Source of the DNA: Leptolyngbya sp. CCY15150
GTDB taxonomy: Bacteria; Cyanobacteriota; Cyanobacteriia; RECH01
Reading direction: 5' to 3'
DNA: 38,241 nt
Assembly: GCF_016888135.1 (NCBI RefSeq)
Contig: NZ_JACSWB010000239.1
Location: 1 to 38,241, forward strand
Part shown: piece by piece, positions 5,948 through 11,938 of the stretch
How positions within the stretch are numbered: the stretch's first letter is position 1
How the letters are laid out: each line of letters opens with the position of its first letter
Made by a program: the position numbers and the translations under genes
The notes under the pieces: model-generated
What the model was told of the DNA's origin: nothing
Seen by the model: the letters and a program-made list of their open reading frames with translations, nothing else
Database searches by the model: none

Positions 5948-8900
5948 ATGTCTTTTTCCAGCTCTGATCACCTACAAACTGCCCTCCAACACCACCAAGC
6001 CGGTCGATGGCATGAGGCAGCTCAGCTCTACCGTCAGGTGTTAGCCCAACATCCTAGCCATACCGAGGCCCTGAAGCTCTTAGGCACCTTAGCGGAGCAA
6101 ACCCAGGATCTGCCGCTGGCCCTCAACGCCTACCAGGAGGCGATCGCTACCGAGCCCACCCAGATCCATCTCTATCTCTCCCTAGGCCGTCTTTATCATC
6201 GACACCATCAAATCAGCGAGGCGATCGCAGTTTATCAACAAGCTCTAGACCGCGGCGTAGCCGCCGCCACCCTGCAAGCGCAACTGGCCGCCGCACTAGA
6301 TGACCAGCAGGACTACGCCGCCGCTGCCCAACACTACCAGCAGGCGATCGCCCTCGACCCGCAAGATGCCCTGCTGCACCACAACCTTGGCACCGTCTGC
6401 CATAAGCAACAGGATCTGTCCCAGGCCATCCGTCACTACCAACGGGCGATCGCCCTCAAGGCTGACTATGCCAAGGCTCATCTCAACCTAGGCACGGCTC
6501 TGCAGCAGCTAGGAGAAACTCACCAAGCGATCGCCGCCTATGAGCAAGCGATCGCCCTCGATCCCAGTCTGGCCCTAGCCTACGATGCCCTAGGCTCTAT
6601 CTACCTAGCCCTGGGAGATCTGTCCCGCGCTGTTGACTACTACCGACAAGCGATCGCCCTGCAGCCCGACCATGCCGATACCCACGTCAACCTGGCCATG
6701 GCGCTCCTGCGATCGGGCGACCTGGCCGCCGGATTTACGGAGTATGAATGGCGACGGCGAGACCGGCCTCTCCCGGAACCCAGATGGGACGGCAGCCCCC
6801 TCCAAGGGCAAGTTATTTTGCTGCACGCTGAGCAAGGCTTTGGCGATGCCATCCAGTTCATCCGCTACGTATCGGCGGTGGTGCAGCGGGGTGGGCGGGT
6901 GTGGGTGGGCTGTCCGTCGCCGTTGGTGCGCCTATTTCAATCTGTGCCCGGCGTGGAAACGGCGGGTAGCGCCATCGATGCCGGTCAGGTACAGCAGCAC
7001 GCCGCCCTGATGAGCCTGCCCCATCTGCTGGGCACCACCCTAGAAACGATTCCTGCGCCCATTCCCTACATCGATCTAGCCCCGCTCTGGGACACCCGCG
7101 CCCAAGCGATCGCCGCCCGCATAGCTACATTTGCAGAGCAGGTTCCCAGCCATCGCCGCATCGGTTTAGTGTGGGCGGGCAGTGCTGGCAACCCAGATGA
7201 TCAATACCGCACCTGCCCTGCGGCGCTCTTGCAGCCGCTGCTGGCTCAGCCCAAATGTCTGTTTTATAGTCTGCAAGTGGGCGATCGCCGGTCGGAATTA
7301 GCCACCCTCGCTCCCCAGGGTGAGGTACTGGACTTGGGCGATGATGTGCAGGACTTTGCTGATACAGCGATCGCCATCAGTCAACTCGATGGGGTGATCA
7401 CCGTCGATACAGCCGTGGCCCATTTGGCCGGAGCCCTGGGGAAACCGGTGTGGATTTTGCTATCGACCCAGCCGGACTGGCGCTGGTTGGATGAGCGTCG
7501 GGATAGCCCTTGGTATCCCACGGCGCGCTTGTTTCGCCAACCCCAGCCCGGTGATTGGTCAACGGTGATTGCAAACGTGGGAAGGGCGATCGCCCAGGGA
7601 GGCTTGCCCCGCAGCCCCAAGCCGTCTGCGGATCCCAGCCCAGCCCAGCCCGTCGAGCCTCACCTGTCTGTAATCCAACAGGGCTTTGTCCATCATCAAG
7701 CCGGTCGCTTGGAGCAAGCCGCACCGTTCTACCAAAGCATTTTGCAGCAAGACCCCGATCACATGGAGGCGCTGCAACTGCTGGGGACTTTAGTGTGCCA
7801 ACAGCAGCGCTATGCCGAGGGCGCAGACTATTTGCGGCGGGCCCTGGCGCTCAAGCCCACCTATGCCGAGGGCTACTATAACCTGGGCTCGGCCCTGCAA
7901 AACCTAGAGCAATCCGAGGAGGCAATCGCGGCCTTTCAACAAGCGATCGCCCTGCGACCAGACTATCCCGAAGCCCATTTGAACCTAGGCACAATCTATA
8001 AGCGCCGTCAGCAATATGCCGAAGCAGCCGAGCAGTTTCAGGCAGCGATCGCCCTGCGACCGGACTATGCGAAAGCCTGGCGCAGCCTCGGCTCCGTGCT
8101 CCGCATCCAGAACCGCTGTGAGGAGGCCATTCCCTGCTATGAGCGGGCGCTGGCCATCGATCCCACCTATGCCCATGCCTACAGCAGTTGGGGCTATTTG
8201 CTGACCGAAATGGGGCAATTGCCCGCCGCGATGGAGAAATATGAACAGGCGATCGCCCTCGATCCTGACCATGTAGATGCCCAGTTTGGTCGCGCCGCCC
8301 TGCACCTGCGCATGGGCAATTTCCTAGAAGGCTTTGCCGGCTATGAATGGCGCTGGAAGTACGACTATTGTCCACCTCGGGATTTTTTCCAGCCCCTATG
8401 GACGGGCGATCGCTTTGCCGGAAAAACCCTCTTGCTCCACGATGAACAGGGCTTGGGCGATGCCATTCAGGCGATGCGCTTTGTGCCCTTGGTGATCGCC
8501 CTGGGAGGACGGGTGGTGCTGGAATGCCGAGACGTGTTGATGCGCCTCTTTCAAACTGTGCCAGGCGTTGACCAGTGGGTGATCCGGGGTGAACCCCTGC
8601 CTGAGTTTGACTGCCACGCCCCCCTGATGAGTTTGCCATGGTTACTGCAGATCACCCTGGATACCTTACCCAACCAGGTGCCCTACCTATCAGTACCCCC
8701 CACGACCCAGCTCACCCTGCCCGCCACGCCTCCCGGCATCCGCAAGCTGGGCATCGTCTGGGCCGCCAATCCGGTGAACAAAACCGGCAGTAAACGTTCC
8801 TGCCCCCTCGACCATTGGCAGGCGATCGCCCAGCAGCCTGGCCTACAGCTCTACAGTTTGCAAAAAGATCCTAATCCCGAGGATCAAGCCTGGCTACGAG

Positions 8901-11900
8901 CCCATGGCGTGATCGATCTGAGTGGGGCGCTCAGCGACTTGGCAGAAACGGCCGCCGCGATCGCCCAGTTAGATCTAGTGATCACCGTCGATACCGCCGT
9001 GGCCCACCTGAGCGGAGCCCTGGGGCAACCCACCTGGGTTCTATTGCCCGCCATGGCCGACTGGCGCTGGATGGTCGACCGCTCCGACAGCCCCTGGTAT
9101 CCCACCGCTCGCCTGTTCCGCCAAACCACATCGGGAGATTGGTCGCCGGTCATAGCAGCGATCGCTACCGCCCTGACCACCCCATCCTTCCTGGCTCCAC
9201 CGTCCACACCTGTGGATCCAGCCCAGCATCGGTCAATCACTGCAACTTCACCCCAGATCGTCCCAGCCGCCAGCGATCGCCCCTCCCGGTCAGCCCTGCT
9301 AAAAACCGCCGTCGCCCAGCACCAAGCCGGTCAGCTAGAAGCCGCCAAAGCCCTGTACGAACAACTCCGCGATCGCTATCCCCAAGACGGCAACGCCATG
9401 CATCTCCTGGGAGTGATTGCCTACCAATCCGGTGAGCTAGACGAGGCGATCGCTCTTTATCAGCAAGCCCTAGACCGCCTGCCCCACTATGCCGAACTGC
9501 ACAATAACCTAGCCGTCGCCCTCGACAAAGCTGGACAGACGGAGCAAGCCCAAGGGCACTATCAACAAGCAATCGCCCTCAAGCCCGACTATGCCGAAGC
9601 CTGGCACAACCTCGGCACCCTCTACCAAGGACAAGACCGCATCGACGATGCCATTCAGCAGTATCAACAAGCGATCGCCCTCAAACCCAACTATGCCGAC
9701 GGCTACAACAGTTGGGGCAGCGCCCTCAAACGGGGCGATCGCCTAGAAGAAGCTCTCAACTACTACAACCGGGCTCTGGCCTTGGAGCCCAACCACTTGG
9801 AAGCACGCTGTGGCCGGGCCGCCGTCTTGCTCAAACTGGGCCAGTTCACCCAGGGCTGGGAGGACTACGAATGGCGCTGGCAGCATCCCGACTGTCCGCC
9901 CCGGCAGTTCCAGCAACCCATGTGGACGGGAGACGAGGTGCGCGGAACCCTGTTGCTTTATACCGAACAGGGGCTAGGAGACGCCATCCAAATGGTGCGC
10001 TATCTACCTCAGGTGCAGGCCAGGTGCGATCGCCTGTGGATTGAATGCCATCAGCCGGGTCTAGGACGTCTATTCCGCACCCTAGCCGCCAGCCTTGGGG
10101 GAGATATCCAGGTGTTTGAACTCGGTCAGGTACCGGACGGCGTGACCTACCAAGCGCCTTTCATGAGCCTGCCCCGCATCTTCGGCACCACTCTAGAGAC
10201 CATCCCCGCCGCCTGCCCCTATCTGCTGCCCCCCCCGGAAACCCTGGGTCCCCTCCCTGCTCACGATCCCCGTCGTGCCAACATTGGGATCGTGTGGACA
10301 GCCAACCGCTTGAGCAAAACCGGCGAGCAGCGCTCCTGTTCCCTAGATGACCTGAAACCCCTACTCTCTCTGGCGTCTCTGGCGTCCGTGAACCTCTACA
10401 GCCTGCAAAAAGACGTCTTACCCGAGGAACAGGCTGTCCTCGATCGGGCAGGGGTGATTAGCCTGGGCTCCCAGTTCACCGACCTGGCCGACACCGCTGG
10501 AGCGATCGCCCAACTCGATCTGGTGATCACCGTCGATACCGTGATTGCCCATCTAGCCGGGGCCCTAGGCAAACCCACCTGGGTACTCCTCCACCTCTCC
10601 TGCGACTGGCGCTGGTTGAGCGATCGCCCCGATAGCCCCTGGTATCCCACCCTGCGTCTCTTCCGCCAAACCCAGGCTAATGACTGGCAACCGGCGATCG
10701 CCCAACTCCTCGCCCAGCTTCAGGAGCACTACCCGATGACACCGCCCGCCCCCACGCCTACCAAACACATCCTGGGCGTAGGCTGGCCCATGAGCCTGAT
10801 GACCGGCTGGGGAAATTTTGGCATCAACCTCGTCCTTCAGCTTCAGCAGATGCCCGACTTCGCGCCCGTGCTGCTGGCTAAATCCGAGGCCATCGATCAG
10901 CTCAATCCCCTACACCGATCGCTCCTAGAACCGATCGTTGCGGAATACCAACGCCTGCAAGCGCTCCTAGACGCCAACCCCGGTAAACAGCTCCAGCTGA
11001 ATGTGCCGGTGCTCCATGCCCTAGGCAATGGCCTCCAAGGCGGACTCATGCCCAAGCTGCGGGGCGATCGCAATCTGGGGGTGATTTTCCTCGAAGATAC
11101 CCATCTGCCACCGGAGGCGATCGCTCGGGGACGTCAGTATGAGCTGCTGATCGCTGGCTCCCAATGGAACGAAACGGTCTTGCGGGCAGCGGGTCTTGAT
11201 CACGCCTATGCCTCTCCCCAGGGCATCGACCCCACCCGTTTCCATCCGGGCCCCAAATCAGGACTCCTGGGCGATCGCTTCGTGATCTTCTCCGGCGGCA
11301 AGCTGGAATATCGCAAGGGGCAGGATCTTGTGGTGGCGGCCGTGCGCCGCTTCGTGGAACGACATCCCGACACCCTCCTGCTCACCGCCTGGCATAATTT
11401 TTGGCCCCAGTTCATGCAGGGCATAGACCGCAGTCATGTTCAGGGTCTACCGACCATCGATGCCCAGCGCCGCCTTCAGGTCAAACCTTGGTTGGCCGCC
11501 AACGGCATTCCACCTCAACAGGTCATAGATATTGGCCCCATTCCTAACTACCTGATGGGGGAAGTGATCCGAGAAGCCGATGTCGCCGTTTTTCCCAATC
11601 GGGGGGAAGGCGGTACTAACCTAGCAGCCATGGAGTGCCTGGCCTGCGGCATTCCCACGATTCTTTCCGCCAATACCGGTCATTTGGATATCATCGGCGA
11701 GCATTGTTATCCCCTCCGCCACCAAGCTCCCGTGCAGCCCATTGCGCCGTTTGTGGGCGTTGAGGGCTGGGGTGAATCCGATGTGGATGAGATCGTGGAG
11801 GCGTTGGAACAGGTCTACAGCGATCGCTCCACGGCCCGCCAAAAGGGGCAAGCCGCCGCCGAGTTTATGCAGGACTGGACATGGGCCAAGCAAGTGCGCC

Positions 11901-11938
11901 GCATGGGTGAGATTCTTCAACGAACTGGGGTAGTGTAG
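5948..11938 (+). CDS. giant protein: three TPR + GT9-like modules followed by a GT4 glycosyltransferase
   Basis: A 1996-residue protein without a signal peptide or membrane segment. Module 1 (about residues 1-550) has some seven TPRs, then a heptosyltransferase-like GT9 domain. Module 2 (about 570-1080) has six TPRs plus GT9-like. Module 3 (about 1113-1600) has five TPRs plus GT9-like. Every module shows the same landmarks in order: YEWR or YEWRW, EQGxGDAI, MSLP, GxVWxA, SLQ, ITVDT, then HLxGALGxPxWxLL, DWRW and SPWYPT. Residues about 1607-1996 form a GT4 domain with SGGKLEYRKGQDLVVAAV and FPNRGEGGTNLAAMECLACG (ExxxxxxxE type). Proline-rich linkers join the modules. Proteins with one TPR-GT9 unit are common in cyanobacteria and are thought to glycosylate proteins or surface glycans; this activity and its substrate are inferred. 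The frame opens at a TTG at 5855, but the ATG at 5948 begins directly before the first TPR and is preferred. The next gene, sqdX, is convergent and also encodes a GT4 enzyme. Confidence 0.85.
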   Translation: MSFSSSDHLQTALQHHQAGRWHEAAQLYRQVLAQHPSHTEALKLLGTLAEQTQDLPLALNAYQEAIATEPTQIHLYLSLGRLYHRHHQISEAIAVYQQALDRGVAAATLQAQLAAALDDQQDYAAAAQHYQQAIALDPQDALLHHNLGTVCHKQQDLSQAIRHYQRAIALKADYAKAHLNLGTALQQLGETHQAIAAYEQAIALDPSLALAYDALGSIYLALGDLSRAVDYYRQAIALQPDHADTHVNLAMALLRSGDLAAGFTEYEWRRRDRPLPEPRWDGSPLQGQVILLHAEQGFGDAIQFIRYVSAVVQRGGRVWVGCPSPLVRLFQSVPGVETAGSAIDAGQVQQHAALMSLPHLLGTTLETIPAPIPYIDLAPLWDTRAQAIAARIATFAEQVPSHRRIGLVWAGSAGNPDDQYRTCPAALLQPLLAQPKCLFYSLQVGDRRSELATLAPQGEVLDLGDDVQDFADTAIAISQLDGVITVDTAVAHLAGALGKPVWILLSTQPDWRWLDERRDSPWYPTARLFRQPQPGDWSTVIANVGRAIAQGGLPRSPKPSADPSPAQPVEPHLSVIQQGFVHHQAGRLEQAAPFYQSILQQDPDHMEALQLLGTLVCQQQRYAEGADYLRRALALKPTYAEGYYNLGSALQNLEQSEEAIAAFQQAIALRPDYPEAHLNLGTIYKRRQQYAEAAEQFQAAIALRPDYAKAWRSLGSVLRIQNRCEEAIPCYERALAIDPTYAHAYSSWGYLLTEMGQLPAAMEKYEQAIALDPDHVDAQFGRAALHLRMGNFLEGFAGYEWRWKYDYCPPRDFFQPLWTGDRFAGKTLLLHDEQGLGDAIQAMRFVPLVIALGGRVVLECRDVLMRLFQTVPGVDQWVIRGEPLPEFDCHAPLMSLPWLLQITLDTLPNQVPYLSVPPTTQLTLPATPPGIRKLGIVWAANPVNKTGSKRSCPLDHWQAIAQQPGLQLYSLQKDPNPEDQAWLRAHGVIDLSGALSDLAETAAAIAQLDLVITVDTAVAHLSGALGQPTWVLLPAMADWRWMVDRSDSPWYPTARLFRQTTSGDWSPVIAAIATALTTPSFLAPPSTPVDPAQHRSITATSPQIVPAASDRPSRSALLKTAVAQHQAGQLEAAKALYEQLRDRYPQDGNAMHLLGVIAYQSGELDEAIALYQQALDRLPHYAELHNNLAVALDKAGQTEQAQGHYQQAIALKPDYAEAWHNLGTLYQGQDRIDDAIQQYQQAIALKPNYADGYNSWGSALKRGDRLEEALNYYNRALALEPNHLEARCGRAAVLLKLGQFTQGWEDYEWRWQHPDCPPRQFQQPMWTGDEVRGTLLLYTEQGLGDAIQMVRYLPQVQARCDRLWIECHQPGLGRLFRTLAASLGGDIQVFELGQVPDGVTYQAPFMSLPRIFGTTLETIPAACPYLLPPPETLGPLPAHDPRRANIGIVWTANRLSKTGEQRSCSLDDLKPLLSLASLASVNLYSLQKDVLPEEQAVLDRAGVISLGSQFTDLADTAGAIAQLDLVITVDTVIAHLAGALGKPTWVLLHLSCDWRWLSDRPDSPWYPTLRLFRQTQANDWQPAIAQLLAQLQEHYPMTPPAPTPTKHILGVGWPMSLMTGWGNFGINLVLQLQQMPDFAPVLLAKSEAIDQLNPLHRSLLEPIVAEYQRLQALLDANPGKQLQLNVPVLHALGNGLQGGLMPKLRGDRNLGVIFLEDTHLPPEAIARGRQYELLIAGSQWNETVLRAAGLDHAYASPQGIDPTRFHPGPKSGLLGDRFVIFSGGKLEYRKGQDLVVAAVRRFVERHPDTLLLTAWHNFWPQFMQGIDRSHVQGLPTIDAQRRLQVKPWLAANGIPPQQVIDIGPIPNYLMGEVIREADVAVFPNRGEGGTNLAAMECLACGIPTILSANTGHLDIIGEHCYPLRHQAPVQPIAPFVGVEGWGESDVDEIVEALEQVYSDRSTARQKGQAAAEFMQDWTWAKQVRRMGEILQRTGVV
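6344..6657 (+). repeat. HIP1 octamers at exact 102-base TPR period
   Basis: GCGATCGC occurs at 6344-6351, 6446-6453, 6548-6555 and 6650-6657, each exactly 102 bases (34 codons) from the last. In every unit it encodes the Ala-Ile-Ala of the TPR helix-B motif QAIAL. An additional out-of-phase copy is at 6527-6534. The same phase recurs in the TPR arrays of modules 2 and 3. The octamer therefore acts as part of the repeat unit at DNA level. Confidence 0.9.

Follow-up and report, generated by a model that had tools for sequence, protein, structure and literature searches.

The question raised by this locus is what function is served by a single protein in which a TPR-glycosyltransferase unit is repeated three times ahead of a glycosyltransferase of another class. 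The gene lies in a 38,241-nucleotide stretch of DNA from Leptolyngbya sp. CCY15150 (the window), where it forms one open frame on the forward strand (5948..11938) of 1996 codons and a stop, with the order (TPR-GT9-like)x3-GT4. The landmarks YEWR, EQGxGDAI, MSLP, ITVDT, HLxGALG, DWRW and SPWYPT each occur exactly three times in the protein, while 2000 shuffles of it yielded 41 matches for all seven patterns together, so that the triplication is far beyond chance. Pfam analysis of the whole protein recovered many TPR repeats, three separate stretches matching PF01075 (GT9) and, towards the C-terminus, GT4-type models. The frame, the landmarks and the Pfam matches thus bear out the architecture proposed in the initial annotation, and the cytoplasmic location proposed with it is supported by sequence prediction, which found neither a signal peptide nor a strong transmembrane segment.

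A draft assembly of 304 contigs, as is the case here, might produce such a frame by collapsing or joining neighbouring repeated genes, a danger that the initial annotation had itself raised. It was checked and rejected. The same three-module gene is present in two congeneric assemblies, with identities of 95% (L021) and 92% (L022) and with the protein start MSFSSS recurring in L021. The modules are also too diverged for misassembly, and versions with five, six and seven modules sit in single-contig chromosomes (L078, L053 and L052). The chance that the frame is false is therefore negligible.

All domains of the gene lie on the forward strand. TPR array 1 (about eight repeats, 5960..6703), array 2 (about six, 7670..8317) and array 3 (about five, 9281..9847) were recognized by both the Pfam TPR models and our own TPR profile; the first was modelled as a superhelix with pLDDT above 90, and the third is likewise covered by a structure model. 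Each array precedes a GT9-like domain. That of module 1 (residues 263-565, 6734..7642) has conserved D, R, D-T and H residues and an AlphaFold model with pLDDT 93.6 and pTM 0.90; those of module 2 (residues 796-1093, 8333..9226) and module 3 (residues 1304-1600, 9857..10747, also modelled) follow, and the modules have the layout of FlmG, an N-terminal TPR part and a GT-B-type domain in a soluble protein without a transmembrane segment. The PF01075 alignment is confined to some 33 of 247 positions, namely the donor-site stretch around VDTxxxHL, and 'GT9-like' is therefore the safe name. Module 2 scores 25.1 bits against the curated cut-off of 22, and 12 of 12 aligned modules match (E up to 0.01); on genome DNA module 1 alone reaches 21.3 bits, slightly below the cut-off. 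When hhalign was used to compare the modules with a true GT9 encoded in the same genome, 33 columns aligned, with a probability of 19%. A GT-B-type alternation was present in the predicted GT9-like model. PF13844, the OGT/GT41 catalytic domain, was absent from the listed Pfam matches of the whole protein and from those of the modules and GT4 domain scanned alone. The best Foldseek matches were SPINDLY and OGT, both TPR plus GT-B protein glycosyltransferases, although the TPR part contributes to these matches and the whole-model TM-scores are low (0.2-0.43).

The donor-site D-T...H residues and an N-terminal GxGD are present in all three modules, with the D and the H each kept in 245 of 246 modules across the family, as would be expected if none of the three lacked a donor pocket. 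Every module is under purifying selection, dN/dS being 0.17-0.18, 0.09-0.14 and 0.17-0.21 for GT9-like domains 1 to 3 and 0.08-0.13 for the GT4 domain; the earlier view of three intact copies therefore holds. The proposed status of modules 2 and 3 as the younger pair fared less well. KTG (residues 945 and 1457) and SLQKD (residues 970 and 1485) are indeed confined to these two, and the GT9-like domains are 54% identical between modules 2 and 3, compared with 48% for 1 and 2 and 45% for 1 and 3; however, tree support for the pairing was only 74 and a grouping of modules 1 and 2 was not rejected.

The C-terminal GT4 domain (residues 1606-1996, 10763..11935) carries the motifs FSGGKLEYRKGQD and EGGTNLxAME, the latter of the EGxxNxxxE type and invariant in the family alignment. 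Its Pfam matches above cut-off are PF20706 (GT4-conflict, 48 bits), PF00534 (43.3 bits) and PF13692 (38.9 bits), and it is included in the structure model. The domain was found in about 11% of the sampled cyanobacterial genomes.

Contrary to the initial impression that a threefold TPR-GT9 protein joined to GT4 is unusual, the gene represents one size class of a family of (TPR-GT9)n-GT4 proteins with n from 1 to 7 and lengths of up to 4169 residues. The host genome also carries a paralogue with n=2, and in L190 a GT41 domain is fused to five GT9 modules and GT4 in one frame of 3724 residues. The family is widespread and apparently undescribed: published work was searched for fusions of TPR with GT9 or GT4 and for glycosylation of oscillin or of Gemmatimonas flagellin, with nothing relevant emerging, and no family repeating a TPR-transferase unit one to seven times with a second transferase class at the end was found in the literature searched. 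Among cyanobacteria it is most developed in the filamentous lineages Microcoleus, Trichodesmium, Okeania and Hormoscilla. In these filaments, the glycosylation of surface proteins is important for adhesion and gliding.

The gene neighbourhoods of the relatives, which include flagellin, pilin and adhesin-like genes, are informative as to possible substrates. In all eight family-bearing genomes among the 150 Gemmatimonadota sampled, the fused TPR-GT9-GT4 gene immediately follows flagellin/FlgL-like and FliW genes; Pfam recognized flagellin domains in the gene upstream of it in five of these genomes (L128, whose locus is identical with L155; L154; L156; L157; L160), and FliW was confirmed by Pfam in L128. 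In L157 the genes after the enzyme also include a flagellin, scoring 119 and 86 bits, and FliD, at 110 bits. The parts of the family occur unfused in Alphaproteobacteria, where GT4, TPR-GT9 and (TPR-GT9)3 genes accompany HlyB/HlyD-type genes and serralysin-C-terminal proteins (L138, L139 and L181), (TPR-GT9)3 adjoins a flagellin-N protein (L183), and GT4 adjoins flagellin (L180) or FlgK (L166 and L176) or lies near cadherin/Calx-beta giants and GT41 (L171 and L173). Two small cyanobacterial genomes also have unfused parts on either side of pilin genes and a GT41 enzyme; in one of these, L057, Pfam identified two N_methyl pilins between the GT4 and GT47-TPR-GT9 genes, with the GT41 gene adjacent. 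A GT41 gene is likewise a neighbour in L176.

No substrate-like neighbour was seen beside the window gene, whose neighbours (sqdB/sqdX-like, HPPK, GNAT-SCP2 and band-7 genes) were judged unrelated, or beside most fused cyanobacterial genes. A regex scan of the cyanobacterial loci for RTX and pilin genes detected an adjacent RTX protein at L053 only; its negatives are weak because it missed the Pfam-confirmed pilins of L057. Neighbour clustering among the cyanobacterial relatives reflected mostly lineage-local synteny, with a GT2-type gene recurring.

Taken together, the window gene probably encodes a cytoplasmic multi-site protein glycosyltransferase, in which a surface or filament protein held by the TPR arrays receives sugars from the GT9-like and GT4 sites before export. 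Each TPR superhelix would grip part of a substrate on its way to the cell surface, either a filament subunit or a large repeat protein that is secreted, and a sugar would be transferred by the GT-B domain that follows the superhelix; the C-terminal GT4 would add a further sugar of a different kind, and the protein would be exported once the glycan had been completed on it in the cytoplasm. The modules would most likely act in succession, so that their number would set the length or composition of the glycan. The initial suggestion of a glycan built on a TPR-bound protein thus gains support from the flagellin, FliW, T1SS, pilin and GT41 genes near the relatives. On the basis of this genomic linkage, the flagellin/FlgL-FliW, FlgK, secreted, cadherin/Calx-beta and pilin proteins are candidate substrates, with Ser/Thr as the presumed acceptor. 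Cyanobacteria have no flagella, and the cyanobacterial substrate must therefore differ from that in Gemmatimonadota. For Synechococcus elongatus, PilA is reported to be glycosylated by Synpcc7942_0051, a protein of the TPR-GT41 type (PMC9260433, PMC12288463 citing Suban 2022). As counterpoints to the glycosyltransferase reading, linkage alone is no proof of modification, the GT9 match is short, and the lineage-wise grouping of modules also fits parallel duplicate activities.

How the modules divide the work is less certain. It is possible, though put forward tentatively, that they form a co-linear assembly line in which module number and order encode the length and sequence of the glycan on the TPR-held surface protein, much as module order is used in polyketide synthases, some forms have a loading module of the GT41 type, GT4 performs the closing step, and lineages acquire new surface glycans through module gain and loss. 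The five-module order is fixed in Microcoleus-type filaments, which is compatible with sequential action and is no proof of it. Alternatively, several copies of one activity may act in parallel, giving avidity for a repetitive substrate or modifying it simultaneously, with GT4 adding a common cap. This is a real, if not the probable, explanation. It would account for the near-invariant hallmark residues and for the grouping of modules by lineage rather than position when distant proteins are compared: modules of one protein are often each other's closest relatives in Microcoleus, Hormoscilla and Trichodesmium/Okeania, and very short branches join Hormoscilla modules 1, 2, 5 and 6. Differentiation is suggested, however, by the Microcoleus-type n=5 proteins, in which identity is 77-84% at the same position across species against 55-64% between positions, and by the fact that about half of the residues differ between the window modules.

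A soluble synthase of polysaccharide or lipid-linked glycan (LPS, capsule or exopolysaccharide), of a kind with the multidomain capsule polymerases, appears unlikely. GT9 is the heptosyltransferase family, the capsule-synthesis multienzyme 8qoy tops the Foldseek list of the GT9-GT4 model, and GT2, FkbM-type and other carbohydrate genes lie near some cyanobacterial relatives; yet its neighbours revealed no gene for capsule export or a polymerase, the linkages of the relatives are those described above, and a TPR array ahead of each GT domain fits protein binding. An effector of biological conflict or defence, as the name of the best GT4 match would imply, is highly improbable, given that generic GT4 models score nearly as high, PADLOC returned no match, no defence genes were noted nearby, and inheritance is vertical and positionally stable with low dN/dS.

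Single TPR-glycosyltransferases (FlmG, OGT) and multidomain capsule enzymes are already known. Should the glycan be fixed by the number and order of the modules, its sequence could be read from the gene. Tractable systems for testing this link are offered by the one-module forms of Gemmatimonadota and the unfused ones of Alphaproteobacteria, which adjoin flagellin and secreted-protein genes.

The family is best read as a variant on the known FlmG/OGT-like TPR glycosyltransferases. In Caulobacter crescentus, the TPR domain of FlmG binds flagellins and its GT domain is needed for their glycosylation (PMC7591256). FlmG is a cytoplasmic protein with a TPR part at its N-terminus and a GT-B glycosyltransferase at its C-terminus and is flagellin-linked, as are the Gemmatimonadota and Alphaproteobacteria relatives; the likeness is one of layout, FlmG having 596 residues, one module and no GT4, and a substrate, flagellin, which cannot be that of the cyanobacterial proteins. 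A PF01075 match in the control genome of Caulobacter is at most a hint that the GT domains are homologous. The GT41 enzymes OGT and SPINDLY (PDB 7yea, 8dtf) and the cyanobacterial PilA-modifying Ogt share the TPR superhelix and GT-B arrangement, and GT41 enzymes are neighbours and once a fusion partner of family genes; however, it is GT9 and GT4 models that the present catalytic domains match, and several of these domains occur per chain. With GT9 heptosyltransferases such as WaaC (PDB 2gt1; D261, T262 and H266 of the chain) the VDTxxxHL donor-site stretch is common, although only some 33 residues align by sequence and the domains here are TPR-fused, repeated and without LPS-core context. The Actinobacillus enzyme 8qoy also carries several glycan-building domains on one polypeptide, but it makes a capsule polymer, whereas this family interleaves its two to eight glycosyltransferase domains with TPR arrays and has relatives with protein-export neighbours.

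The uninterrupted frame at window:5948-11938 (+) encodes a protein of 1996 residues, in which Pfam recognized long TPR arrays, three stretches matching PF01075 (GT9) and a GT4-type domain at the C-terminus. Each of the seven landmarks (YEWR, EQGxGDAI, MSLP, ITVDT, HLxGALG, DWRW and SPWYPT) occurs exactly three times in it, as the initial annotation had claimed; 2000 shuffles of the protein gave 41 matches for all seven patterns combined. The GT9-like domains share 45-54% pairwise identity. The same three-module gene was found in two congeneric genomes (95% and 92% identical), one of them Leptolyngbya sp. DLM2.Bin15 (locus L062), and single-contig chromosomes bear relatives with five, six and seven modules (L078, L053 and L052). 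An assembly artefact, which the initial annotation had named as a refutation, is thereby ruled out, and the frame is a genuine gene. Compared with the congeners, every GT domain showed a dN/dS of 0.08-0.21, indicating that selection keeps every module; only a 32-residue linker preceding the third TPR array was relaxed (0.27-0.59).

The architecture had been thought unusual, but profile scans of the fetched loci revealed a family in which the gene is no singleton. The (TPR-GT9)n-GT4 proteins comprise 23 with one module (frames scored complete, part of them fragments of broken frames), nine with two, ten with three, three with four, 22 with five and one each with six and seven, the last being the longest (4169 aa). 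A second copy in the host, on a separate contig, has two modules. The GT4 domain occurs in 42 of the 390 sampled cyanobacterial genomes (27 of 160 genera), mostly within frames of more than 900 aa, and in 20 of 385 Alphaproteobacteria and 8 of 150 Gemmatimonadota sampled. In Alphaproteobacteria, Verrucomicrobia and one Deltaproteobacterium it is a stand-alone gene, often adjoining at least one TPR-GT9 gene, so the fusion unites partners that are also linked when separate. The GT4 genes of L120 (a record labelled Akkermansia) and L124 (Poribacteria) are 51-52% identical to the cyanobacterial one; these are possibly mislabelled or mixed bins.

Of the 246 modules compared, 245 retain the GxGD Asp and 245 the VDTxxxHL His; the VDT Asp is present in 240 and the RSC Arg in 239, with Lys in its place in six. 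All four are present in the three window modules, in agreement with the earlier reading that no copy had lost its hallmarks. At L138 and L139 (Rhizobiaceae), Cys replaces the VDT Asp in the third module of a (TPR-GT9)3 protein and in a single TPR-GT9 gene, and these modules may be inactive or altered. The VDTxxxHL stretch aligns with D261-T262...H266 of WaaC (chain 2gt1); since sequence resemblance to true GT9 enzymes is limited to it, "GT9-like" is the proper name. Modelling with AlphaFold gave good structures for TPR1-GT9-1 (mean pLDDT 93.6, pTM 0.90) and TPR3-GT9-3-GT4 (88.1, 0.68), for which the top Foldseek matches were SPINDLY, human OGT and 8qoy, a capsule multienzyme, with low whole-model TM-scores driven in part by the TPRs.

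A tree built from 89 GT9-like domains shows that grouping across distant proteins tends to follow protein or lineage and not position, so that independent multiplication of modules must have happened many times. Every position of the Microcoleus-type five-module proteins forms its own orthologue group (77-84% identity for the same position between species vs 55-64% between positions); judged by sequence, their modules are differentiated and their order stable. KTGxxRSC and SLQKD are indeed confined to the second and third window modules, and the proposal that these are the younger pair agrees with the preferred pairing in the tree (support 74), but neither a pairing of modules 1 and 2 nor a single clade of all three was rejected. 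Hormoscilla sp. GUM202 (L185, L186; G395 contig 10) carries around 29 GT9-like modules, around 14 of them within three neighbouring frames in 25 kb, which are either one broken giant gene or several genes. On the single-contig chromosome of genome G020 (L051/L052), a (TPR-GT9)4 gene without GT4 adjoins a GT2-type gene and a seven-module gene, giving 11 modules in about 22 kb.

No neighbour informative for substrate was found around the window gene. Convergent with it lie genes for a GT4 enzyme and a sugar epimerase (window:11996-14473 (-)), presumably sqdX and sqdB of sulfolipid synthesis, and a sulfotransferase (PF13469) gene is located about 4 kb upstream (window:670-1644 (+)). The relatives offer more. 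In every one of the eight Gemmatimonadota genomes that carry the family (L154-L161), a flagellin/FlgL-like gene and fliW precede the fused TPR-GT9-GT4 gene, making this a candidate flagellin-glycosylation locus. In L157 the other side of the fused gene is occupied by FliD (110 bits) and a flagellin, whose Flagellin_N and Flagellin_C domains score 119 and 86 bits. HlyB/HlyD-type genes and serralysin-C-terminal proteins adjoin GT4, TPR-GT9 and (TPR-GT9)3 genes in Rhizobium and Agrobacterium; in other Alphaproteobacteria, flagellin-like genes (L180, L183), FlgK (L166, L176), or giant cadherin/Big/Calx-beta proteins with a TPR-GT41 enzyme (L171, L173) lie near GT4 or (TPR-GT9)3. Two small cyanobacterial genomes (L057, L058) have two type IV pilin genes between GT4 and GT47-TPR-GT9 genes, and a TPR-GT41 gene beside this cluster. 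PilA of Synechococcus elongatus is reportedly glycosylated by a TPR-GT41 protein, and pilA adjoins an Ogt gene in many cyanobacteria (PMC9260433, PMC12288463). In cyanobacterium G087, L190:7032-18203 (+) encodes a 3724-aa frame of GT41 (PF13844, 92.9 bits), five TPR-GT9 modules and GT4; a 1645-aa TPR-GT41-TPR-GT9 frame precedes it. A GT2-type gene with a SIIVPA.NCE motif recurs next to fused genes in several cyanobacterial lineages (L052:986-2284, L189:4428-5918 and L190:19039-19899).

These neighbours (flagellin/fliW, HlyB/HlyD with serralysin-type proteins, FlgK, cadherin-type proteins, pilin and GT41) point to pre-export glycosylation of surface and filament proteins as the family role. Polysaccharide synthesis is a rival role; a conflict system has little support. 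In the favoured mechanism, the TPR arrays would hold the substrate, the GT9-like sites would put sugars on it and the GT4 would contribute another; the data themselves show the anatomy of the protein, its conservation and the genomic linkage, and substrate class, acceptor and order of action are what we infer. Assembly-line action of the modules is a possible and more novel reading, the rival being that they act in parallel, multivalently. No description of the (TPR-GT)n-GT4 layout was found in the open-access literature searched. TPR-glycosyltransferases and multi-transferase proteins are both already known, and for a TPR-held protein served by a glycosyltransferase there is a precedent in FlmG of Caulobacter crescentus, whose TPR domain binds flagellins and whose two domains are both required (PMC7591256).
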